Source of the DNA: Echinarachnius parma
Lineage: Eukaryota; Echinodermata; Echinoidea; Clypeasteroida; Echinarachniidae
Direction: 5' to 3'
DNA: 64,000 nucleotides
Assembly: GCA_037951105.1 (NCBI GenBank)
Contig: JBAMJV010004340.1
Span: 60,983 to 124,982 of the forward strand
The notes under the pieces are model-generated. The model was not told where the DNA came from. It was given only the letters and a program-made list of their open reading frames with translations, and did not search any database. Position numbers and translations under genes: made by a program. Position 1 is the stretch's first letter, and each line of letters starts with the position of its first letter. Positions 13,782 to 60,954 of the stretch are shown piece after piece.

Positions 13782-14166
13782 TTAGTTAACGGGTGAAGTG
13801 TAAACATGCTTGTCTACCCCTTGAAGTTCAACATATTCGTTGCCTGGATTTGGGATCTCGTAGACGTGGGTTTCAAGGGAACCAACGGTCGGACGTCGTG
13901 CCCCGGTGTCTTCCGTCGAACCATCTCCACGTCTCATTTGGTCTTCGGTTACCGTTACCGGAACGGTGTAGTATTCATGCGATAAACTTGGTCGATGGGT
14001 GTCACGTTCGCTTTGCCCACTCTCCCCATAAGCATAGTCGTAATCATGGCTACCGAGAGGCTTAGGGGGTAGGGTCGCTTCATCTGAACTGAATGCAGGA
14101 TTGCTTCGCAAGGCAGGATCATCCATAGCCCCTTCGGAGGTTTTGGTACAATTGCCTGACTTAGAC
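13782..14166 (-). CDS. Cytoplasmic tail exon with stop codon
   Basis: The exon starts after the acceptor TTTTGTGCAG. It continues the frame of the transmembrane exon as RSKSGNCTKTSEGAMDDPAL and encodes about 128 residues before TAA at 13,782-13,784. The tail has an SNPAF motif, a YVEL motif of the YxxL type, and three YxxP motifs (YTVP, YEIP, YTSP). YxxL-type motifs commonly direct endocytic sorting. Phosphorylated YxxP is a known docking site for Crk/Nck-type SH2 adaptors. Signalling here is an inference from motifs only. I recognise no folded domain. Confidence 0.87.
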
Positions 14167-14429
14167 CTGCACAAAACAGTACAATCATATCGATTTAAAT
14201 AGATAAACAAACTAGATCATACAGTATGAATGGTCTCTAATAAAACAGTATAGATTTGTTAATGTTTTTCCTTTATAAAGTTGGAATGGATTGTTTCCGT
14301 TGATTTCTATCTCGATATTAGATTTTCGCTGATTTATGCTTTTGAATAAAATGTTAACATCTTTGTCATTGGAGGACGGTCTACTGCTAAAAAAGATGTT
14401 AATGACTTGCATACCTGGGTTTGGATACG

Positions 14430-18662: not shown

Positions 18663-19474
18663 AAGGGAGCTCTTCGTGACATGCACATTGGTAATTTAAA
18701 AAAAAAGCTTAAAATTGGCAGTTAATTATTGTTAGATGCAATACGTACTCACGATTGTATTTATGCTAACATAATCATGCTTGTATGAACAGATCAATGT
18801 ACACGAATGTACTATCAATGTACACAATGTACACGAATGTACTATCACAGTAATATAGGTTAAACTATGTGTGGTTATGGTATTCATAATTATGTGACAT
18901 GCACTTTGGTAACAAGCAAAACCAGTTTTATTGACAACCAATTGATAGTTGCAATATATAATCACGACTGTCTTTATGCTAAAATAATCATGCCTATATA
19001 TTAACATATCAACTGTTATCCTACTTTTACGACATACATTAGATAAGTTGCCGTTTTACATGTCTTTAATTGTGTTTATTCTGCTGTAGGCATTCCCTTT
19101 TATATGACGGTTAAGTGGAACATACAATAAACATGATACAATTGATAAACGAATGGAACAGTCTACCCTTGTTTGTTGTAGAAAGCTCGTCCATAAATGT
19201 TTTTAAGTCCAATTTGGAGAGATTTTGGTCTGTAAAAAGAGAAAAATTCAGTCCTGATGAAGGTTTTGCCTGCCCATGTTCATCATATGCTGTACAGCGT
19301 CACTAATCGCACAGAAGTTCAGACCTACTCTGATGTCAACGAGGGGCAAATAAGTTTGTAAAACTTTTTAAGCCCACTTCCTAAGTTTATAATATATACA
19401 CTCCTTCCTAAATCACGGGTTAGAGGAACATAGAATACAACAATTATGGTGACATCTAAAATATGGATAGTATA
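18663..19474. other. Intron sequence between D10 and D11
   Basis: The words GTACACGAATGTACTATC near 18,371 return twice near 18,795 and 18,830 as a small duplication. A 63-residue open frame at 19,115-19,306 (FVVESSSINVFKSNLERFW) looks like the worn C-terminus of a LINE RT but is too short to be sure. Confidence 0.4.
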
Positions 19475-19826: not shown

Positions 19827-20132
19827 CAGATAAACAACGAACACCCGCATCTTCGGAATGTCTGCAATCATTCATTCCAAGGCCACTGTGGTCACATTCA
19901 AAGATGTTAGTTTCGGTTCCAGCACAACTGACGTCATCGAAGTGAATATATCCAGTGCCCTCACCGAACGCACCCCCTCCAAGGGCTTCCAGAGCAGCTG
20001 GAAACCCGAGACTTCTGCAGACAACATTCGCGTCATCTATATCCCAGCTATCATCACAGACAGTTCCCCATGTTCCGTCATAGAACACTTCTACTCGACC
20101 TTCCTTTGTGTTACTCCCAGCTTTAAGGCGAA
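19827..20132 (-). CDS. SRCR domain exon D10
   Basis: 306 bp, 102 residues, six cysteines. It begins VRLKAGSNTKEGRVEVFYDG and has GTVCDDSWDIDDANVVCR. The usual GTGDILLD reads GTGYIHFD. It ends DAGVRCLSG. Acceptor AG precedes TTCGCC; donor is GTAATT. Borders are phase 1. Confidence 0.92.
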
Positions 20133-20788
20133 CTTTATCATGAAATAGAAAGTGCGATGCATATTATGTATAATTTACAAATAATATTAGATTTTATATT
20201 ACTGTGAGCAAAACATATATACACCTGTCCGAACCTTAATATCATTTTAAATCTTCCGTCATGCCCTGTACGTTAACAAATGAATATATGTTGTCGATAT
20301 GAATCGTAACACTTTCCTAAATCAATGCAAATCATTGCGCTTTATTAATATAGCCATCGTTTCTTATCGTTGTAAAACACATTTTCATTTTTGCAAAAGT
20401 CCTTCATGTCAGTCATGTGCCAAACGACCGAACGAATTCTCGTTTCTGACGTGTACGAAGGAAAAAAACATTATTTTAAGCTGCACCAATTAAAAACAGA
20501 TAATAATCCTGATGACCTATGAAAATTGCATCATCTCATTACATGGCAAAGAATCCAATCACGGCAGTCCTGGAATCATGATGCTACATGCACCTGTTCA
20601 TGATAATTCATGAGTAAATATGCATATTTCATACAGACAACACTAGCTAGTCAGTCATCGCAAAGTACAATATTGTGTGCCTAATGTTTTATCAGGTAAA
20701 TAACTTGTAAAATATATGTCTGAAATAATCTTCCTTGTAATTCGACAAAGTACACTGACGAAATAATGTACAATATATTTGTAGTTAC

Positions 20789-21130
20789 CTGTCATACATT
20801 GGACACCTGCATCTTGAAGATGATCACAGTCGTGTTGCCCAATCTGTGCACATCGAACACCCGCACCCCTAAACAAACCAGGCCCACAGTTCTGGTTTCC
20901 CAGACCTTCATAAGTGCAGTAAAAAATGTCCGACTCTGTTCCCGCACAGTTCACATTGTCCAGTAGAACAGCTACAGCATCAGAACTGAGTTCCCACTGA
21001 GAAGAGGCAGTTTCGGCAGCTAGGAAACCTAGACTTCTACAGACAACGTTTGCATCCTGGATGTCCCAGCCATTATCACAGACACTCCTCCAAGCTCCGT
21101 CATAGAACACATCAACACGACCTTCGTTGT
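20789..21130 (-). pseudogene. SRCR domain exon D9, 3' fragment, interrupted by hAT-like element
   Basis: The segment reads EGRVDVFYDGAWRSVC, then VVCRSLGFLAAETA, and ends DAGVQCMTG before donor GTAACT. Without the insertion the exon would be 366 bp, about 20 residues longer than its relatives. The extra length lies at the end, where the last block occurs twice: NCGPGLFRGAGVRC and then DCDHLQDAGVQC. This raises the cysteine count from six to eight, an unusual partial internal duplication. The insertion adds stops, so the exon can only be used if it is skipped or if the element is spliced out or excised. Confidence 0.87.
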
Positions 21131-22586
21131 CAGGGGCGTAGACAACGGGGGGGATGAGGGGGATGCATCCCCCCCACCTCACAAGGTGGGGGGGATGACA
21201 TGTACAATCATCCCCCCCAGGTTTTAGGGAAGGATATATTTTGTTGTGTGTATCTATACGAGTGAAAAAAAAAAACATTACTTGTATGCATAGGCGTACC
21301 CAGGGGGGGGGGGGGTTTGGCGGTTCAACCCCCCCCCCCCCCTTTGACCCAAAAATGGCTGTAAGGGGGGGTTTGAACCCCCCTTTTCACATTTTAACTG
21401 GTCTCGAGACTACTTTTAAGCCGTCTTGACCGTCTAAAACCTGGTCTCGACCGACTAAAACGTGGTAACAACCGACTAAAACCCGATCTCGGTACCAACA
21501 ATTGTCAAAGATCTCCGGTATCGGGTTCGAAAATTGTGAAAGTATTTGGACTGAGAGAGTTGAATGAACCTGGTCTCGGTCTCGACAATTTTGAAAGTAC
21601 TTGGTCTTGGCTTCGAAAATTGTTCACGAACCCCCCCCCCTCCCCCCCCCCCCCCCCCCCCCACTGAGAGGGGTTTTCAACTTTGAAGGTACTTGGTCTT
21701 GGGCTCGAAAATTGTGAAAATTTACGGTCACCCCCCCCCCCCCCCCCCCACTGAGAGGGGTTTTCAACTTTGAAGGTACTTGGTCTTGGGCTCGAAAATT
21801 GTGAAAATTTACGGTCACCCCCCCCCCCCCCCCCCCCCCCCCACTGAGAGGGGTTTTCAACTTTGAAGGAACCTGGTCTCGGTCTCAAAAATTTTGAAAG
21901 TACTTGGTCTCGGCTTCGAAAATTGTTCACGAACCCCCCCTCCCCCCCCCCCCCCCCCCACTGAGAGGGGTTTTCAACTTTGAAGGTACTTGATCTTGGG
22001 CTCGAAAATTGTGAAAATTTACGGTCACCCCCCCCCCCCCCCCCCCCCCCCACTGAGAGGGGTTTTCAACTTTGAAGGTACTTGGTCTTGGGCTTGAAAG
22101 TTGTGAAAATTTACGGTCACCCCCCCCCCCCCCCCCCCCCCCACTGAGAGGGGTTTTCAACTTTGAAGGAACCTGGTCTCGGTCTCAAAAATTTTGAAAG
22201 TACTTGGTCTCGGCTTCGAAAATTGTTTACGGAACCCCCCCCCCCCCCCCCCCCCCCCCCACTGAGAGGGGTTTTCAACTTTGAAGGTACTTGGTCTCGG
22301 TCTCGAAAATTTTGAAAGTACTTGTTCTCAGCTTCGAAAATTGTTTACGGAACCCCCTCCCCCCCCCCCCCCCCCCACTGAGAGGGGTTTTCAACTTTGA
22401 AGGTACTTGGTCTCGGGCTCGAAAATTGTGAAAGTACTTGGTCTCGAAATGAGAGGACTTCCAAGCAATTGCCTTGGTCTCAAAATATGTGGGCAGGTGG
22501 TCTCGGCCGCGAACAAATTAGTCTTGGTCCGGTGAACTGAACAGCAAATCATCCCCCCCAGGTGTAAGAACCTGTCTACGCTACTG
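21131..22586. mobile_element. Non-autonomous hAT-like element in SRCR exon D9
   Basis: The left end is CAGGGGCGTAGACAAC. The right end, inverted, is CAGTAGCGTAGACAGG. The element is flanked by the 8-bp duplication TTCGTTGT at 21,123-21,130 and 22,587-22,594. CAG-starting ends and 8-bp duplications are hallmarks of hAT transposons. The 1,456 bp contain no transposase, only C-run-rich minisatellite and a short GC-rich hairpin near the left end. A second word, TAGGCGTACCCAGGGGG near 21,292, may be the end of a nested element. Confidence 0.9.
21630..22440. repeat. Minisatellite with poly(C) runs inside the hAT-like element
   Basis: Eight units, each a C-run of about 17-30 bases followed by ACTGAGAGGGGTTTTCAACT and TTGAAGG. 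Units of about 90 bp (with TTTACGGTCA) alternate with units of about 117 bp (with TCGGCTTCGAAAATTG). On the sense strand of the receptor the runs are G-runs. Run lengths in an assembly are unlikely to be exact. Confidence 0.9.
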
Positions 22587-22594
22587 TTCGTTGT

Positions 22595-22618
22595 AGTCAT
22601 TACCACCTTCAAGACGAA
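22595..22618 (-). pseudogene. SRCR domain exon D9, 5' fragment
   Basis: These 24 bp encode the first residues of D9 (VRLEGGNDY with the split first codon). They follow an AG acceptor and stop at the 8-bp duplication TTCGTTGT that borders the hAT-like insertion. Read together with 20,789-21,130 and counting the duplication once, they make a complete SRCR domain in frame. The interruption is therefore an insertion into a formerly normal exon. Confidence 0.85.
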
Positions 22619-23010
22619 CTATCAGATTGCGTTAATAAAATAAATGGAGACTGTTTATAAGGAACTAACTACTGGTATCATATATATTATACATGTATTG
22701 CAAACATAGTACATCGAAGTAACCATGAATGAAATTCATTATTTGTCATGTCCCTGGTGATGTTTGTTGTAACCCTGAAGATAGCTTTTCAAGTAAGGTC
22801 AGATGAGGGCAACGAAGGGATGATTTCCCATAAGGGGGTCACCCGAGCCGATAATAAAATAATAACGGTGTTGACTTTATATTCCAGGTTCGTGGATTAG
22901 ACAATGGACACAACATATAAGAAAATGCCCAAACAGGCGTTATCTTCCAGAACGTATCAATGGTGAATGCAATATAGTTATATTTAAAATGTTTTATTGC
23001 CGAAAAATAC
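22619..23010. other. Intron sequence between D8 and D9
   Basis: No repeat ends or coding sequence recognised. Confidence 0.45.
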
Positions 23011-23559
23011 TTATAGTGATGCCTGTAAAGTGTATAACTCCACAAAAATACTTGGAGCTTCCTCGTTTCTATTCTGCCGTGTTGTTTAGCATATGGTAAC
23101 AGAAGAATAAAATAGGGTTAGATTTGTTCAACTGTTCCTTTAGTATGAAAATATTTATCATTGAAAATCATTATTTTAAAAGCGTTGCTAACGCTTTTGA
23201 TAACAAGTACAATTGCCGTAGCTGAACACGTCCGGCCAACCCGCGTGGGAAACCTTCCCGATATACGACTGTTGAGCCAAGCGTGCGCAAATTCCACGAA
23301 TTCCGTACCGTCTGTATTCACGGGTGCGGAAATCGTCAAGATCATGGATGATTATTACTGCGACAAATTTACGGCCGGCCATCAGTATTCGGTGATAAAA
23401 TATGAACTCAATATTCGTTTTTTCGCTAGGTAAACAGTGTTCATTTTCTTTCACACTTTCACAAATCTTTCAATTGTATTGTATAATGATATTGATATAG
23501 GATTGAAGTCTCAAATTTCATTTTTCGCAATATCTGACACTTTACAGGGATCACTTTAA
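23011..23559. mobile_element. MITE of the AGTGATCC family, copy 1
   Basis: The left end is TATAGTGATGCCTGTAAAGTG and the right end is GACACTTTACAGGGATCAC followed by TTTAA. It shares long interior words (TTGGAGCTTCCTCGTTTCT, GAAAATCATTATT) with the copy at 47.86-48.40 kb. A 90-residue open frame inside (WPDVF/VRPTRVGNLPD) is not conserved between copies and is not taken as a gene. Confidence 0.82.
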
Positions 23560-23753
23560 GTCACAGTTAACATGATTCTAATAACTTTCTTGACAAGTGC
23601 ACAAAGTGATAAATGGTTAATAATAATTATGTGTATTGGTGTAATTTGGTATGTCTAAACTACATGCCATTGGTAAGCTTACATCTCTCCAGTCATTAAA
23701 TTATTCGGTTGTTTTTTCGAACCGTTCGAAAGACAAACCAAATGATTCTCTAC

Positions 23754-24059
23754 CTGATGTACACCTAACCCCTGCATCTTCTTGGTGGGAACAATCATTG
23801 ACTCGTAGATCAGGATAAACACAATCAAAGATGGTTGACTCTGCCCCAGTACAACGAACATCATCCAGTAGAATGTCTCCGGTGCCTTGACCAAATGCTG
23901 CGCTACTCAGTGCGGCCTCTGCAGCTGGGAAACCAAGACTTCTGCAGACAACGTTCGCGTCATCAATATCCCATAAGTCATCACAGACAGTTCCCCAAAC
24001 TCCGTTGGAGAATACTTCTACTCGACCTTCCTTACCATAACCCCCATCTTGTAGTCGAA
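23754..24059 (-). CDS. SRCR domain exon D8
   Basis: 306 bp, 102 residues, six cysteines. It begins VRLQDGGYGKEGRVEVFSNG, has GTVCDDLWDIDDANVVCR, and ends DAGVRCTSG. The segment between cysteines four and five (YPDLRVNDC) differs from the common HAGLGSHNC. The donor is GTAGAG. Borders are phase 1 and no damage is seen. Confidence 0.92.
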
Positions 24060-24467
24060 CTGGGAACAACAACAATGAATTTGCAAAAATTAGCAGCATC
24101 TTTATTTAAATTTCAAGCGAGAGCAACATTAAATGAATAACTATGGATTTATGGATTGATGTGGTAGTATAATTTTAGAAACCAAAATGGGATTTCCCAT
24201 TAAAACATTATAACGAGTTTCGTTTGACGCCCTCTAATGGTACAGTAAATTGAAGAAAAAACAACTGACTTCGAACATAGATTTTCAAATTGTTTTATTC
24301 TTTTGGGATATCACTAGACTAGTTATGTTACCTTCCAATTGTACATTCGACTCAGAGTACAAAGAAGATCCATCGTAAATGATTTTTGTCATTAGTAGGC
24401 GGTTTCTTGGCCAAATTTGGATAATCCTATATTAGTATAATTATATTCTTTCACATTATTGGTAATA

Positions 24468-24871
24468 GAGTGGTGAAGTGTGATGTCATAAATGATGTCA
24501 TAAACATTTTGTTTAGAATTTTTAAATTTGGACTTCATTTTCAGAAAGAGCATAACAAATAATGTCCAAATACCGAAAATCAAAGAAATGGTTTACTTAT
24601 TGACTGAGATATGTCCATCCGAATGATTTTTTGTCAATGGGCAATTAGTGTTAAAGTGCACTGGTTAATAAATGTATGAACCAGTGCACTATAACACTGA
24701 TTGCCCATTGAAGTAAAATTCACTCGGATGGGCATATCTCAGCCAATACGTAACCTATACCTTTGATATTCGGTATTTGGACATTATTTGTTATGCTCTT
24801 TCTAAAAATGAAGTCTAAATTTTAAAATTCTAAAAGAGTGTTTTTATGACATCATGGCTTCTGTACTCTAT
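24468..24871. mobile_element. Large near-perfect hairpin (snapback element)
   Basis: Two arms of about 195 bp meet at a loop of about 15 bp near 24,672. Paired words include AAAGAGCATAACAAATAATG with its inverse at 24,783, and GGGCAATTAGTGTTAAAGTG with CACTATAACACTGATTGCCC. TGACATCA-type words lie near both outer ends. No coding capacity. Confidence 0.82.
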
Positions 24872-30281: not shown

Positions 30282-30589
30282 CTGAATATAAACATCTTAC
30301 AGCAACGTCCTGGCTGTGGTCACAGTTGTGGACTCGAAACCCAGCATGTAGACAATCAAAGATGACGTCTCTATCCCGGTACATGCAACATCATCCAGTA
30401 TGATGTCTCCTGTGCCTGGGTTAAATGCATCGCTACTCAGTGTCACCTCAGCACCCATGAAACCAAGACTTCTGCAGACAACGTTCGCATCCTGAATATC
30501 CCAGTTATCACTACAGACAGTTCCCCAGGCTCCGTTGGAGAAAATTTCAACTCGTCCCTCATTCAGACGATCTCCACCTTCAAGACGAA
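30282..30589 (-). pseudogene. SRCR domain exon D4, frameshifted
   Basis: The exon is 308 bp where its relatives are 306 or 309. It reads normally from VRLEGGDRLNEGRVEIFSNG through DDVACTGIE. It then leaves frame at about 30,364-30,370. The other frame gives the expected IFDCLHAGF, HNCDH and DVAVRC blocks, so one nucleotide is missing. Splice borders are normal (donor GTAAAA). If included, the exon would truncate the receptor; if skipped, the phase-1 borders keep the downstream frame. A TA-flanked element ends 14 bp beyond the donor. A single-base assembly error is possible. Confidence 0.85.
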
Positions 30590-39891: not shown

Positions 39892-40868
39892 AGGTAGCAA
39901 GCCAACGTTGGACCAACGTTGGAAACTTGCCAACTCGTTGGAACTCGTTGGACGTTGGACAGACTCGTTGGACCAACGTTGGATCAACATCGGTAACTCG
40001 CAGTAAAATGGACGTTGGACAGACTCGTTGGACCAACGTTGGATCAACATCGGTAACTCGCAGTGAAATGGACGTTGGACAATCTCGTTGGACCAACGTT
40101 GGATCAACGTCGGTAACTCGCAGTGAAATGGACGTTGGACAATCTCGTTGGATCAACATCGGTAACTCGCAGTGAAATGGACGTTGGACAATCTCGTTGG
40201 ACCAACGTTGGATCAACATCGGTAACTCGCAGTAAAATGGACGTTGGAGAATCTCGTTGGACCAACGTTGGAACAACATCGGTAATTCGCAGTGAAATGG
40301 ACGTTGGACAATCTCGTTGGACCAACGTTGGATCAACATCGGTAACTCGCAGTAAAATGGACGTTGGAGAATCTCGTTGGACCAACGTTCGATCAACATC
40401 GGTAAATCGCAGTGAAATGGACGTTGGAGAATCTCGTTGGACCAACGTTGGATCAACATCGGTAAATCGCAGTAAAATTGACGTTAGACAGACTTGCTGG
40501 ACCAACGTTGGATCAACATCGGTAATTCGCAGTGAAATGAACGTTGGACAATCTCGTTGGACCAACGTTGGATCAACATCGGTAACTCACAGTAAAATGT
40601 ACGTTGGAGAATCTCGCTGGACCAACGTTCGATCAACATCGGTAAATCGCAGTAAAAATTGACGTAAGACAGACTTGTTGGACCGACTTGTTGGACCAAT
40701 ATTGAATGAAAATCCGTAATTCGCAGTGCAATGGACGTTGGACAATCTCGTTGGACCAACGTTGGATCAACATCGGAAACTCGCAGCTCGAAAGCTGTTG
40801 GACAAACTCGTTGGACCAACGTTAGATCAACGTTGGATATCCGCATAAGAATATCACAATCGTTAGTC
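39892..40868. repeat. 60-bp minisatellite with palindromic core, about 15 copies
   Basis: The unit reads GTTGGACCAACGTTGGATCA, then ACATCGGTAACTCGCAGT, then AAATGGACGTTGGACAATCTC-like sequence. It contains the perfect palindrome CCAACGTTGG. Units keep a 60-bp period over most of the array, so both strands are open over 150-200 codons. Those frames have no other coding feature. One unit near 40,148 is shortened. Confidence 0.93.
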
Positions 40869-43368: not shown

Positions 43369-44181
43369 AGTTCTGCACGCATGACTGAACATCAGACAAT
43401 CTTTACAAGACTTCAAAATCACACTTCAATCTACATTGTCTTAATCAACTGGATTTACTCTAATTGTGCAGGAATGTACAGCAAAATGGCATTTTCATGA
43501 GAATGGTGGTTTGGTTTGGCATATCCTAATAAACACCTATATCATAAATTATTGTTAAAAAATGCCTATTTTTCTTGAATTGTTTCACCTTAGAATCAAT
43601 ATGAAGTCCATCTAAGTGAAATTTATGGTTCAGATACTTTTTTATTCCCTTCTGAAAAGAAAATCACCTTGAAAAATAAAAATGGCAAGCGTATATGCAA
43701 GGTTAAACTGGTTGCTAGGGAAAATTATGTTGCTAGGCAACACAATTTCATTATTATTTACTTACAAATTATGTCAGACTGTTCGGAGTTATTTTTTAAT
43801 TTCATTATTAGGGTTTAAATCATTGGAAACATACATTTACTTTTTTTAAATATTAAATAAAAATTGCTAAGTAACTAATTTGTTCTTAATATCAGTTGTA
43901 TTTCATGTGAAAATTGGCATGTGTAATATAATTGGCGTTGCCATGGTTACAAGCAACTATTTTAATGGGGGTTAGCATATATCGGGAGCTGGGTTCATAA
44001 ACTTTCCTTTGATACCAAATTTTCCATGCCCGTCCGTAGGTGCAGCCAAATCCTAAATTAAGGCTCGTTCTGGACTTGGCTCATGGACTATAAGGGGTAA
44101 TGAGAGTTAGCATGAATTACATACTCATGATGTATGAAGTAAGGATTTTGTCATTGACCTTGAGGTGAACCTTAAGTGACC

Positions 44182-50138: not shown

Positions 50139-50940
50139 TTATTTGATTTTCAGCAGATCCTCTTCACTGGCGATGACAAGCGGCGGGCTGGTCTCGGTTT
50201 TCCTCACAAGAATCTTGGTATTCCAGGTCCACAAGTAGCGGTAGCCCTCCCTCTTTCTGATCGCGTTCGCCCTCGACAGCAAGACTTTGGTGCTTGGCAG
50301 CAAGTTCTCATTGATGTACACCTTCCTCTCCTCTCTGCAACCTAGGTCACGGCTCGTCATGGACTTCAGCTTCTTCTTTCCCTCATACACAGCATCTCTG
50401 GCCCGACGGGTGGTGAACCTCACGATGATGGCCCTCGGAGGTGGATTCCCGGCTGCTTCAGACTTCTTGCCCATCCTGTGACATACATCGATGTCAGTCG
50501 GGCCGACGTTGGCATGGTTGGGTGCCACATGCTGGATAACTTTGGCAACGATCTCCTTTACGTTCTCCCCCTGGACCTCTGGGACACCTGCTATCTCAAG
50601 ATTCACCCTTCGATGATATTGATCAAGTTCATTCAATCTCGTTTACAATCCTCCAACTCTATCTTTTAGAACACCATTGTCTTTTTTCAGCTCTCTGTTT
50701 TCTGATTTCAGATCATGGACAGTTTTATTCAGCTCGTCGAATTTCGAACTGAAAAAGTCTAAGGCTTTTGTGAGTTCAGATTGCCCTTGCTTTAAGTTCA
50801 ATGAGTGATGTCTCGACAGTACTTAATTTTGTAGTAATGTTTTCGGTCAGTTTTGTAATTTCGTTTTTCAATACAAACAAATCAGTAAATGTATTGTCCG
50901 ACTGATGACTCTGGTTGTCTTTATTCTTTTTCGGAGGCAT
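50139..50940 (-). pseudogene. LINE A ORF1
   Basis: It starts at ATG 50,938-50,940 with MPPKKNKDNQ and a coiled-coil-like heptad stretch (LKNEITKLTENITTKL). It changes frame near 50,790, continues as LKSENRELKKDNGVLKD, meets a stop near 50,640, and ends with a 165-residue open frame. That frame (YHRRVNLEIAGVPEVQGEN ... IDVCHRMG ... AIIVRFTTRRARDAVY) matches the RNA-binding fold of L1-type ORF1 proteins. These bind their own RNA and act as nucleic-acid chaperones. Two breaks make it non-functional. Confidence 0.8.
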
Positions 50941-51106
50941 TTTGACTCACATGTTCTATCGTATATGTATCATATATGCATTTATATCATCATATAGTAT
51001 AAAGGATATAAGTCCAGATGAGCAGTAATCCAGGCCACGGGTCACGTAATCCTAGCTCGATCCGCTTAGATGAAATGGTCAAAACCCGTCAAATCCCTTT
51101 AAACTT

Positions 51107-51798
51107 GATCACTCCGCTATTGCTCATGTAAGTTCTGAGAAATGTGATTTAGGAGTATGGAGTATCAGAAATAGCACTACAAAGCTCGCTAATGAGTCAG
51201 TTTAAACATGTATCACGAGATTGGCGTTGCCATGGTTACGAGCAAATATTTTGTTTGGGGGGGGTCAGCATTTCTTGGTAGCTGGGTTCATAACCTATCC
51301 GCTGATAACAAAATTTCCGCGCCCGTCTGGGGGTGCTACGGATTTCATTTTTTCTGGCCTCGGCACATGAGCACAGGTATCGGCACGGTAGTGCAGGTGG
51401 TGCCGATGTTAGAACTTGATAGCAATTTACGAGTTCGGTAATTGGTGTTTAATTTGATGTCAGGCCGATGTAATTTAGACATCGATACTATGACGTCAAA
51501 CATATATTCCATCGATGACAGAACCTTCGGCAACGGAACAAGTCGGCAAATGGTAAAATTAATATTCTCTCATTAATCCATCATAAATATGACATCTCAA
51601 ATATGGCGTCGGTTCGAAATTTTGCCGACGATAGATCTGGTAGCAATTTTAGATGTCTTTATAATAAATGGTTGTAAAATTTATGTCGGGCCGATGTAAT
51701 GAATTAGACATCTCAAATATGACGTCAAACCCTTATCCCGTCGATGTCAGACCGTCAACAATGGAACAAGTCGGCAAATGGTCATTAAAGGACCTACA
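51107..51798. mobile_element. Foldback-like element copy A, core end and right arm
   Basis: The core continues from 45,033 as TTGCTCATGTAAGTTCTGAG, matching 60,750 onward. The arm then reads GCCGATGTTAGAACTTG ... GTCGATGTCAGACC ... ACAAGTCGGCAAATGGTC. This is the inverse of the left arm (GACCATTTGCCGACTTGT at 41,509). It ends TTAAAGGACCTA, the inverse of the left end TAGGTCCTTTAA of copy B. Confidence 0.75.
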
Positions 51799-52573: not shown

Positions 52574-55500
52574 TTATACGGGTAATCTCCCGGTTCTTCT
52601 TACATAATCAACGAGAGCTTGTTGGAGGGGTCGCTCTAAAGAATTTAACAAAGTCATTATTTTTCCTTCTTCATATAAACCTGTTTCAGCCATCAACATG
52701 GCCCTTTGAACTATGTACTCTGGACACTGACACAAAAAATGTGTAATAGTTTCAAATATACCCTCACAATTAGGGCAATACCCAGTATCGTGTTTTTTCA
52801 AGACACATAAATTTACATTTAAACCAATGTTTCCCATTCTTAAACAGTGCAATATACTTTCATTTTTTCTATTATTTAATTTACATATATATATACTCTT
52901 AACATTCTTTTGCACATCTTTAAGACATGATTCAGTTCCTTCCCATCTTGTCTGCCATTTAACATACATTCGTTTCCTTATAATACTATTAATTTCATAC
53001 CTTGCTAATTTATTATCAATTTCTATTTTTTTTTTCAAACCTCGTTTCGCTTCTATATCCACAATCTCATTACCATTAAGTCCACAATGACTAGGAATCC
53101 ATTCAAAAAACACAAAAGTCCTTTTATTCTTCAATTGTAAACACAAATTTAAAATTTCATATACAGGAAGTTCCTCTTTGTGACTCTTTATGGCTTGTAA
53201 AGAACTTAAAGAGTCGCTAAAAATAACTGCCCCAGTGTACAAAATAGGATGATTATCCAACCATTCTAAGGCGAGCACAATTGCTGCCATCTCTGCCCTA
53301 TAAGAGGATGTATAGTTTGAGAGTCTCTTAGATAATGAATAATCATAGTAGGGGACGTAGAAGGCGGCGGCCGCACTCTCCTGTTCTGGTGATTTTGATC
53401 CATCAGTATATATTTGCAAATAATTTTTCCATTTTGTATTTATCATTTCTATTGTTGCTTGCCTTTGATGCAATTGATTGTCTCTTTTACAAATATAATC
53501 ATGTAATTCTATTGATATTAAAGGAACATTCAAGTGCCAAAAGGGGGTTCTAGAAAAAATCATCTCCTCAACTTCAAAATTAAAAGTATTCATCAATTCC
53601 ATTGATCTTTGTCCAAAAGCTGTCCTAGAATTATTACCTCCATATATATGAAATTGCCAACAATCTTTGATATCCTCTTTCAAAGGATGATTTTTTACAC
53701 TTTCAATTCGCTTTTTAAGTTTACAACATAACATTTCTCTTCGTAAGTCTAAGGGCATCTCTCCTCATTCCACTTGTAGGTCTCTGAGAGATGTCCCCTT
53801 GCGTGCGCCGGCACATACATATAAACTTTGGTACTGGACTGTATTTAAAATATTTTTAATACTGGGTGCCGCTGAGTCATAAGCTTCACAAGCGTAATCT
53901 ATGGTTGATAAAATCAAAGATGTATACACCATCAAAAGTTCTTTAGCATCTCCACTCCATTTAGCATGTGCTAAACTTTTGACTACATTTAATTTACGTT
54001 TACACCGATTTGCAACATCTGTTATATGAGGCCGCCAAGTAAGGCGTTTATCAAAAATAACTCCAAGATACTTATGCTGTTTTTGAGGAAGCAATTCATG
54101 TTCTCTTAAATGTAATTTAATATCATCATTTGATTTATTTGAAAAGAGGACAGGAACTGTTTTCTCTAGAGACATTTTCAAACCCCATGACAAAAACCAA
54201 GAATCCAAGGTATTGATGCAATTTTGTATCAATTGCGTATTCATATTTATATCATAACCAGATTTCCATATGACACAGTCATCTGCATAAACCAAATTAT
54301 GAATGCCAGGGGGCGAAGGGATATCCTTCAACATCACATTAAACAATAAAGGACTAAGAATACTACCTTGAGGTAAGCCATTTTGGGGGTGCATAATTTG
54401 GGATTTGCTATCCCCTACTTGAACCTGAAATGTACGATCCAACAAATAATTCCTTAGAAAAACAAGAATATTTCCTTTAAGGCCTATATTACTAAGCTTA
54501 ACTATGAGTCCCTTCGTCCAAAGGGTATCGTAAGCTTTTTCCAAATCAATAAATACTGCTAGAGTTTGCATACCAACTCGTAAATGTCTTTGTATCTCAT
54601 TTTCTAAATGCACGATGTTATCTATAGAGCCTCGACTTTTCCTAAAACCACTCTGATTATTATTTAATATTTCATTCTTTTCTATATACCATTGTAATCT
54701 TTCTTTTACCATACTCTCCATAATTTTCATAAAACAAGATAACAAAGAAATGGGTCGGTAAGATGACGTCATAGTAGCATTCTTATTTAACTTCAATACA
54801 GGAATTAAAATGGCATGTTTACATTGTTCTGGTACGATGCCAGTACTCCATATCTTATTAAATAAATTCAAAAAAACCTTCTTGGCCATTTGGGACATAT
54901 TTTGATAAATTTCATAAGTTATACCATCTTCACCAGGAGCCGATATTTTTTTCTCCTTCAAAGTCTTTTCTAACTCCAACATTGTGAATGATTCATTTAT
55001 TACCAAATCAAAATTATTATTATAACTTTCCTCAACATCAATTTGCTTAAAAGCTTCAAGCACTTCTCTCTTCTTCGTCTTATGACCACTAACTGAGTTT
55101 CCAACGGATGTAAAGTACTCTCCAAACTCATTAGCTTTATCCTGGTCATTTACTATCACCTGTTCTCCTTTATATATTACTGACATTTGTTTAACTTTCT
55201 TCCCTATATTACCATTTAACATTCGAATAAAATTCCATAATTCCGAAACAGATGTAAAACGATTCAATTTCATAGCGTAATTTAACCAAAAGGTTCGTGT
55301 TGCCTGCCGTATAGTCCACTGGGCATCTCTTTTCTTATCTTTATATAATTGAACGTTTTCTACACTCCAAAATTTCATCAATTTATTGTTTTCCTTATTT
55401 CTTGCTTTTATCTTTACATTACATTCTTCTGTCCACCACGGGACTGCATTACAACCTTTTCCTTTCTTACTACTTAATAACTCATTTAATATATCATATA

Positions 55501-56323
55501 AACATTCCATAAAGTTTGCATAGAATACATTTACATCATCGTCATATAATGTTTCCATATTGATCCTTTCTTCACTCAATCTATGAAAGGCTGTCCAATC
55601 CATTTTTTTAAAGGACCACCTAAAATATTGATTTTCTTTTTTGTCCTTTTCCCTATTATTAACACTATATTGAATGCAGACTGGGAAGTGGTCACTTCCA
55701 AACTTGTCTGCAAAGACCGACCAAGTACACTTACTGGCTATCCCCGATGAGATCAAGGATAAGTCTAAACATGACGTTCTCCCCGAAATGGGGTCAAGAC
55801 GTGTACCAGATCCATCATTTAAAATAACCAAATTATGTTTCAACAAAAAATCTTCTATTAATCGACCATTTTTATCAATTTTTTCACTCCCCCATAAACA
55901 ATTATGGGAATTAAAATCTCCCACTATTAATAATTTATCTTTATCTTTAACATGCTTAACCAAAGTATCCAAAATAGCATTGGTTATATCATTACATGGA
56001 TTATAATAATTTACGACTGCTAAATGATTATCTCCATAATATATATTTACTAATTGCATTTCTATGTCTGTTTCAATTTCCACATACTCATAATTGATGG
56101 AAGTATGAATATATATAGCACATCCACCTCTTCGTTTATTAATTCTATTTTTACAAAAACATGAATAATTTGGAATATCAATTATAATATTCCCCTCATA
56201 CCAAGTTTCCTGAATACAAATTATGTGAACAACTTTTTCTTGCGAGTTTAAATAATTAATCAATTCTCCACTATGTCCATTCATGCCCTGCGCATTCCAC
56301 TGGAGGATGAGTAGCGCAGTCAT
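52574..56323 (-). pseudogene. LINE B ORF2 (endonuclease, reverse transcriptase, RNase H) with one in-frame stop
   Basis: ATG at 56,323 lies 6 nt after the ORF1 stop, suggesting reinitiation. The endonuclease keeps WNAQGMN, QETW, VGDFNSHN and SDHFPV. The RT has APGEDGITYEI, SYRPISLLSCFMKIMES, FIDLEKAYDTLW, LPQGSILSPLLFNVML and the catalytic YADD. A TGA at 53,765-53,767 follows LRDLQVE. The same frame resumes at once with GEMPLDLRRE, and continues through RNase H (IYTDGSK, YRAEMAAI, FSDSLSS, EIVDIEAKRG) and a C-terminal C..C...H...C motif (CPNCEG ... HFLCQC). Without the stop it would be about 1,249 residues. Catalytic residues all look intact. Confidence 0.93.
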
Positions 56324-56329
56324 AATAAT

Positions 56330-59102: not shown

Positions 59103-60954
59103 TAGGTCCTTTAAATTAATGTCGTGCCGAAGTCATTAATCCGACATGAATAAGAGATCTCAAATATGACGTCGGGTTAATATCGCGCCGATGTTTTAAC
59201 TGGTATCAAATTAAGAGGTCGGTCAAAGATTGAAAACTTGGGTGTTGGGCTTATGTTATGACAGCTCAAATATAACGTTGGGTCAATGTTGTACCGATGT
59301 CGGTATTGGCGACCATTTGCCGACTTGTTTCATGGTTTCAACTCTGACATCGGCAGGATATCGGGATGACGTCATAATTGAGATGTCATATTGAGGTCCA
59401 ATTAATAACATTGGCCCGACATTAATTAGTTTCATCAAATTGCATTTTTCTTGAATTGTTTCACTTTAGAATCAATATGAAGTCCATCAAAGTGAAATGT
59501 ATGGTTCAGATACTGAGGTCCAATTAATAACATTTGCCCGACATTACTTTCACAACCATGTACCGACCTCTTAAATTGCTACCAGATCCAACATCAGCAC
59601 AATATCGGACTGACGTCGTAGTAGAGATGTCATATTTAAGTAGGAGTAATGACATCAGCCCGACATCTATTTCACAACCATTTACCGACATCTTTAATTG
59701 CTACCAGCATATTTTGGAACCCTTTTCATTGTAAGTTCTGCACGCATGACTGAACATCAGAGAATATGAGAATAGTGGTTTTGTTTGGCATATCCTAACA
59801 AACACCTATGATTATCATAAATTATTGTTGAAATGCCTATTTTTCTTGAATTGTTTCACTTTAGAATCAATATGAAGTCCATCAAAGTGAAATTTATGGT
59901 TTAGATACTTTTTTATTCCCTTCTGAAAAGAAAATCACCTTGAAAATTTAAAATGGCAAGCGTATATGCAAGGTTAAACTGGTTGCTAGGGGAAATTATG
60001 CTGCTAGGCAACACAATTTCATTATTATTTACTCACAAATTATGTCAGACTGTTCGGAGTTATTTTTTAATTTCATTATTAGGGTTTAAATCATTGGAAA
60101 CATACATTTACTTTTTTTAAATATTAAATAATTGCTAAGTAACTAATTTGTTCTTAATATCAGTTGTATTTCATGTGAAAAGTGGCATGTGTCATATAAT
60201 TGGCGTTGCCATGGTTACAAGCAACTATTTTAATGGGGGGTTAGCATATATCGGGAGCTTGGTTCATGACCTTTCCTTTGATAACAAATTTTCCATGCCC
60301 GTCCGTAGGTGCAGCCAAATCCTAAATTAAGGCTCGTTCTGGACTTGGCTCATGGACTATAAGGGGTAATGAGAGTTAGCTTGAATTACATACTCATGAT
60401 GTATGAAGTAAGGATTTTGTCATTGACCTTGAGGTGAACCTTAAGTGACTATGTCACTCATTAACTTTAAGAGTTTAAAACTGATATCATACTCTCCATT
60501 CACATGGTGGATTTTAACTCTGGAGGCCATGTGCGTGTGTTCCTCCATTACAAATGTGTCATAGTATAGCTCAGAAAACCGACTACAGAGAAATAACTAG
60601 CCAGAAATCCACTAAAGTTCTAATTTGTGACTGTAGTATACAATTAGGGGTTAATTAGCGGTGATCCTTGGGACCTTAAAATGGTACCCTCATCTTAAAA
60701 CATGTTCTAACAGAAATACAGTCCTTAAATGTCTGAGTATATGAACAATCACGATTATTGCTCATGTAAGTTCTGAGAAATGTGATTTAGGAGTATGGAG
60801 TATCAGAAATAGCACTACAGCATTTCTTGGTAGCTGGGTTCATAACCTATCCGCTGATACCAAAATTTCCGTGCCCGTCTGGGGGTGCTACGGATTTCAT
60901 TTTTTCTGGCCTCGGCTCATGAGCACAGGTATCGGCATGGTAGTGCAGGTGGTG
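59103..60954. mobile_element. Foldback-like element copy B, left arm and core, right arm lost
   Basis: It starts TAGGTCCTTTAAATTAATGT, then the arm words ATCGCGCCGATGTT and GACATCGGCAGGATATCG. The core runs in the same order as copy A without the three MITEs and without LINE A. The match to copy A ends at GTAGTGCAGGTGGTG (60,954), just where the right arm should begin. It has small deletions relative to copy A. Confidence 0.78.

Follow-up and report, generated by a model that had tools for sequence, protein, structure and literature searches.

Whether a receptor gene built from many similar domains is silenced when a transposon enters one of its coding exons, or continues to yield a receptor with a single domain lost or altered, is the question raised by exon D9 in a 64-kb stretch of the Echinarachnius parma genome (contig JBAMJV010004340.1; hereafter the window, meaning all 64,000 nucleotides analysed).

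The SRCR Exon Array and Exon D9

Fourteen SRCR exons lie on the minus strand of the window, from D1 (62001) to D14 (15222), interspersed with LINE-like frames and satellites, and the host gene of D9 is a large, multi-SRCR gene of the scavenger-receptor type. All 14 exons begin behind an AG, with a phase-1 border. For eleven sibling exons the donor was read by eye, and the length of ten of them is divisible by three. D2 and D11, which are not among these eleven, are in phase by selection, since their donors were picked among in-phase GT dinucleotides only. The exception among the eleven is D4 (30282-30589, minus strand; 308 nt), where the frame is lost near 30363, about three quarters through the exon, and SRCR similarity resumes in another frame up to 30292. 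This frameshift could be a real lesion or an assembly error, possibly of a single base, so that the gene copy is possibly a pseudogene or one assembled with errors. If real, it may mean that the gene copy is partly dead or also skips D4; as an assembly error it would be of no consequence. The 12 SRCR exons other than D4 and D9 are open, without a stop. A stretch at 13782-14216 (minus strand) with several tyrosine motifs, recognised by eye, is likely the cytoplasmic tail of the receptor; Pfam returned no match for it.

D9 itself (20789-22618, minus strand) extends from an AG acceptor before 22618 to a GT donor after 20789 and is interrupted. When the interrupting element and one copy of its flanking duplication are left out, the joined exon measures 366 nt, is phase 1-1 and contains no stop in the phase-1 frame. 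An earlier reading made from the letters alone (the sequence-only reading) had described D9 as reconstructable and open over 366 bp, with phase-1 borders that make its skipping frame-neutral, and both descriptions hold. The SRCR family of Pfam (PF00530) matches D9 with 86.2 bits (cut-off 26.1) over positions 7-99 of the 100-position profile, the match beginning at the duplication, and 22 sequences of solved structures match at 1e-10, with CD163/M130 as the best.

D9 is 39-69 nt longer than its 12 intact siblings (297-327 nt), because its C-terminal stretch (20789-20910, minus strand) is partly duplicated in tandem, which adds about 20 residues and two cysteines. The two pieces, both picked by eye, align with a score of 9.5, a value reached by none of 500 base shuffles. 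In a leave-one-out comparison D9 scores 139 bits, the second-lowest value of the 13 exons without a frameshift (D14, 108 bits; the other 11, 149-177 bits), and the frameshifted D4 scores 119 bits. Among 12 exons, D4 and D14 being left out, its mean amino-acid difference is the highest in the 3' part (0.571; others 0.395-0.519) and barely the highest in the 5' part (0.317; others 0.254-0.307), so that its divergence lies mainly in the 3' part.

The repeats among which these exons are set include LINE-like frames at 52574-56329 (minus strand), in which endonuclease and reverse transcriptase share an open stretch of 854 aa and RNase H has one of 396 aa. A 167-aa frame at 50139-50642 (minus strand) matches Baculo_FP_2nd with 49.6 bits (cut-off 24), the L1 ORF1-type family Transposase_22 staying below its cut-off, and is probably the first frame of a LINE. 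A large satellite with 60/120/180-bp periods, open in several frames, occupies 39949-40831. The repeats at 43497-44180 and 59766-60449, which are 95.8% alike over 689 columns and have further pieces of 94-98% nearby, are a recently active or duplicated repeat family.

A Transposon Insertion Within D9

The interruption of D9 is a genuine, clean transposon insertion into an exon. The element spans 1456 bp (21131-22586) and is flanked by an 8-bp target-site duplication, TTCGTTGT, the left copy (21123-21130) being identical at all eight positions to the right copy (22587-22594). Its CAG/CTG ends form terminal inverted repeats, CAGGGGCGTAGACA on the left (21131-21144, plus strand) and CAGTAGCGTAGACA on the right (22573-22586, minus strand), which agree at 12 of 14 bases, with mismatches at positions 4 and 5. 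Both the duplication and the inverted ends sit exactly at the break in the exon. This anatomy had been proposed before, as an 8-bp duplication with CAG-type inverted ends left by a transposition into D9, and is correct to the base.

When the window was searched for identical 8-mers flanking a CAG...CTG pair with a spacing of 100-6000 bp, the D9 element was the single pair found; its ends match at 10 of the 12 bases compared. One hundred first-order Markov resamplings of the window gave a mean of 1.02 such pairs; none reached 10 of 12 matches, and the best, in one resampling, had nine. The flanking 8-mer alone is thus not beyond chance, whereas the 8-mer and the ends together are.

Consequences for the Message

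The insertion leaves a 5' piece of D9 stranded behind the native acceptor (22595-22618, minus strand; 24 nt plus the right copy of the duplication). Read on from that acceptor with the element retained, the frame encodes RLEGGNDYNEQ before it meets a stop at codon 12, within the right end of the element. A plain knock-out could follow, in which the message is truncated and targeted for decay and the gene copy is a pseudogene or a null allele. To this predicted stop can be added the independent frameshift in D4. However, D4 may owe its frameshift to a one-base error of assembly, the other 12 SRCR exons have stayed open, and skipping of D9 would keep the frame. We therefore regard a knock-out as unlikely, at a level that still deserves attention.

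The element also carries an acceptor-like site on the transcribed strand (approximately 21251-21282, minus strand), composed of a poly-T tract followed by TATAG, with 21253 as the first exon base. Independently of any score matrix, the site has phase 1 and a frame that stays open as far as the D9 donor, and the predicted alternative exon, D9' (20789-21253, minus strand), would be 465 nt long, open and phase 1-1. Of the 89 AG sites of the element only four combine the right phase with such an open frame, and 21253, the site with the highest score, is one of them. Splice sites were scored with a simple weight matrix built from metazoan frequencies. Under this matrix the site scores 7.1, above 12 of the 13 sibling acceptors, while the native D9 acceptor scores -1.6, the lowest of the 14; these values come from a matrix that separates real sites poorly, as seven of the 13 real sibling acceptors score below 2.5. 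Nine sites on that strand score at least 6.5, only two of which are SRCR acceptors, and an unassigned site at 19229 scores 9.7.

The D9' product would keep D9 from the duplication onward and replace its first eight full codons (RLEGGNDY) with 41 residues; one would come from the codon across the border, and the 40 others, which are element-derived, contain three new cysteines. The start of the SRCR domain would be lost, so that the product might not fold. Use of the site would re-start D9 as a chimeric SRCR domain with a transposon-derived N-terminus, in an array receptor from which single domains can drop out with the frame intact, an outcome that we put forward tentatively and consider improbable rather than far-fetched. 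A search of the literature collection for SRCR together with exonization gave no paper. The in-phase acceptor-like site goes beyond the earlier account of the insertion, which did not include it.

The explanation that we favour, and consider fairly probable as a whole, runs as follows. A transposon entered D9 and, as the anatomy shows, duplicated 8 bp of its target; it is probably a non-autonomous hAT-like element that was moved in trans by a transposase from elsewhere. Where the element is retained in the mRNA, translation is predicted from the sequence to end at codon 12 of D9; the acceptor-like site inside the element outscores the native acceptor, lies in phase and leaves the frame open up to the D9 donor. 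Since D9 is phase 1-1 and this site is in phase and open, we infer that the allele would make mainly in-frame messages: D9 would be skipped in one and, in a possible second, would begin at 21253. In that case the gene would still yield a receptor, with a single domain missing or altered, and would not be knocked out.

The Element and Its Superfamily

The element has a GC content of 0.526, against 0.375 for the window. The motif GGGGGATG occurs six times in the window, always inside the element: five copies at 21149-21216 (21149+, 21158+, 21166-, 21190+ and 21209-), all no more than 90 bp from the left end, and a sixth at 22550-22557 (minus strand), no more than 40 bp from the right end. The interior contains 3.3 copies of a 21-bp tandem unit (21423-21491) and, at 21560-22446, a tandem array whose units of 87-118 bp carry poly-C tracts. 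In this array a higher-order period of 300 extends over 21560-22317, and C-runs reach 26 bases. The hexamers AATAAA, ATTAAA, AGTAAA and TATAAA are absent from the transcribed strand of the element.

As to coding capacity, the element's open frame of 186 aa had no match in Pfam, and a stretch of 199 aa that continues from the element into D9 matched SRCR families only. No hAT transposase was detected in 67 of the window's 78 frames of at least 90 aa, scanned whole or in part, the other 11 being SRCR exon frames. The element is present in one copy in the 64 kb. Among the blastn matches listed for the window, only its own array and plain C-runs appeared, and a filtered self-comparison of the window at 1e-8, with pairs less than 1500 bp apart omitted, returned no row inside 21132-22586. 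Exact patterns of the array and the left end had no matches in viral_contigs, and blastn against phages gave no match to the element; neither collection is one of animal sequences, so that these negatives carry little weight. Rfam reported nothing in 20000-24500, and among the matches listed in a literature search for the end sequences none was about transposons by title.

A relaxed scan of the window for other hAT-like insertions, which required six identical end bases and so did not recover the D9 element itself, gave 17 matches. Among the 15 listed, 14 are TA repeats and one is a weak lead, a possible short insertion at 50962-51506 with a 7/8 duplication (TTCTATCG/TTCCATCG) and 10/14 ends.

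The element is best read as a non-autonomous DNA transposon that is hAT-like, rather than a proven member of the superfamily, on the basis of its duplication length, short ends, size and a subterminal motif chosen post hoc; it would have been mobilised in trans by a transposase encoded elsewhere. hAT elements are characterised by an 8-bp duplication, short terminal inverted repeats of 5-27 bp and a length below 4 kb (PMC3517528), and repeated subterminal motifs are described for Ac/Ds (PMC3260210). The D9 element has the 8-bp duplication TTCGTTGT, perfect over its whole length, 14-bp ends with 12 matches and a length of 1456 bp. Its ends and duplication thus agree with the hAT-like assignment made in the sequence-only reading.

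Other superfamilies share some of these features, P-like elements being an example with 8-bp duplications and short ends. An origin in such a non-hAT superfamily would be compatible with all splice outcomes. Ac elements have the target consensus nTnnnnAn. The duplication TTCGTTGT fits this consensus at one of two positions, the second base being T and the seventh G, and has GT in the middle, not the TA of the consensus nnnTAnnn given for Buster targets (PMC3517528). Both this incomplete fit to the hAT target consensus and the lack of a transposase in the frames scanned leave room for a non-hAT origin. Against it, the CAG ends resemble the CAG(G/A)GGTAGGC ends of the hAT element Mar, and the 8-bp duplication, short ends and length below 4 kb are those listed for hAT elements in the same source (PMC3517528). 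A non-hAT origin is accordingly rated as distinctly improbable, and the hAT-like assignment is retained.

Two further alternatives fare worse. The element could act as a new intron. The donor would be one of two sites within the 5' piece of D9, 22607 or 22604, and the acceptor 21121, immediately beyond the left duplication, so that 21 or 18 nt of the exon would be removed in frame. Maize Ds elements can be removed by splicing, and the geometry here resembles theirs; the two products, of 345 and 348 nt, would be open and keep the frame. However, the same matrix gives acceptor 21121 a score of -4.2 and the donors scores of 0.7 and 0.8, and the higher-scoring acceptor 21253 comes earlier on the transcript, which makes this splicing very unlikely. 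A chimeric contig, with unrelated pieces joined at 21130 or 22587, would draw on the poly-C runs of the element, which are of a kind that is hard to assemble, but is scarcely credible with the duplication and inverted ends exactly at both borders and the exon continuing in frame.

Age of the Insertion

The exon was previously argued to have decayed little and the insertion therefore to be recent. The openness of the exon stands, but as evidence of age it is weak, with 51% of simulated exons still open at 5% neutral substitution. In these simulations 3.8% of random substitutions in D9 created a stop, and the probability that D9 stays open was 0.75 at 2% and 0.51 at 5% for substitutions alone, and 0.38 and 0.13, respectively, when a crude indel term (0.12 per substitution) was added. 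An open exon alone thus argues only against an old insertion.

Decay after insertion was also considered as the source of the divergence of D9 and was rejected. The ratios of first-and-second- to third-position differences are 0.64 and 0.39, within the sibling ranges of 0.52-0.69 and 0.34-0.49, which is a coding-type pattern. Since this pattern falls within the range of the siblings, most of the divergence of D9 probably predates the insertion.

Significance and Comparison With Known Systems

The D9 insertion is an ordinary event except for one testable feature, the acceptor-like site that the element carries in phase. An exact duplication together with a reconstructable exon makes it a clean case for the damage tolerance of tandem-domain receptor genes. 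If D9 is skipped, the number of domains changes and the frame is kept; if the acceptor in the element is used, the phase 1-1 SRCR array absorbs the transposon as new coding sequence. Should the chimeric D9' be real, a DNA transposon would here be seen in the act of diversifying a scavenger-receptor array.

Introners have a DNA-transposon origin and show a duplication at some of their borders. They are mobile elements that copy into many genes (PMC9860276). By contrast, the D9 element is present once in 64 kb and has its good splice sites away from its borders. At the borders themselves, where an introner reading would place the splice sites, the scores are low, -4.2 for the acceptor beyond the left border and 0.7 and 0.8 for the donors close to the right one, which speaks against this reading.

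In antisense Alu exonization, an A-rich tract read antisense becomes the poly-T of a new acceptor. The acceptor-like site of the D9 element resembles this case in that an antisense A-rich tract supplies its poly-T, but the D9 element is a DNA transposon, and its new site is placed within an exon that was already there, which it could re-start instead of adding a cassette.

The Drosophila element Mar, a hAT element of the Buster group, is described as having CAG(G/A)GGTAGGC ends, an 8-bp duplication and no coding capacity (PMC3517528). The D9 element is like it in its CAG ends, its 8-bp duplication and the lack of a detected transposase; the two differ in that Mar, as described there, is 610 bp long and AT-rich with an nnnTAnnn duplication, whereas the D9 element is 1456 bp long, with a GC content of 0.526, poly-C arrays and the duplication TTCGTTGT.

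The Ac/Ds family of maize, represented by Ds1 and Ds-l4, offers a further parallel among hAT elements. Its members are described as non-autonomous, with an 8-bp duplication, 11-bp ends, subterminal hexamer repeats and unrelated filler (PMC3260210), and the D9 element, compared by description, shares the 8-bp duplication, the short ends and the probable non-autonomous state, and may share the subterminal repeats, for which its motif was chosen post hoc. Ds1 is described as offering three donors and two acceptors for exonization, none of them more than 35 bp from its ends, in work based on simulated intron insertions (PMC5432752). The acceptor-like site of the D9 element differs in lying 123 bp inside, and the insertion in being in an exon, not an intron. 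Since Ds1 is described there as a supplier of donors and acceptors (PMC5432752), the use of an acceptor from the D9 element would be a mechanism of a known kind.
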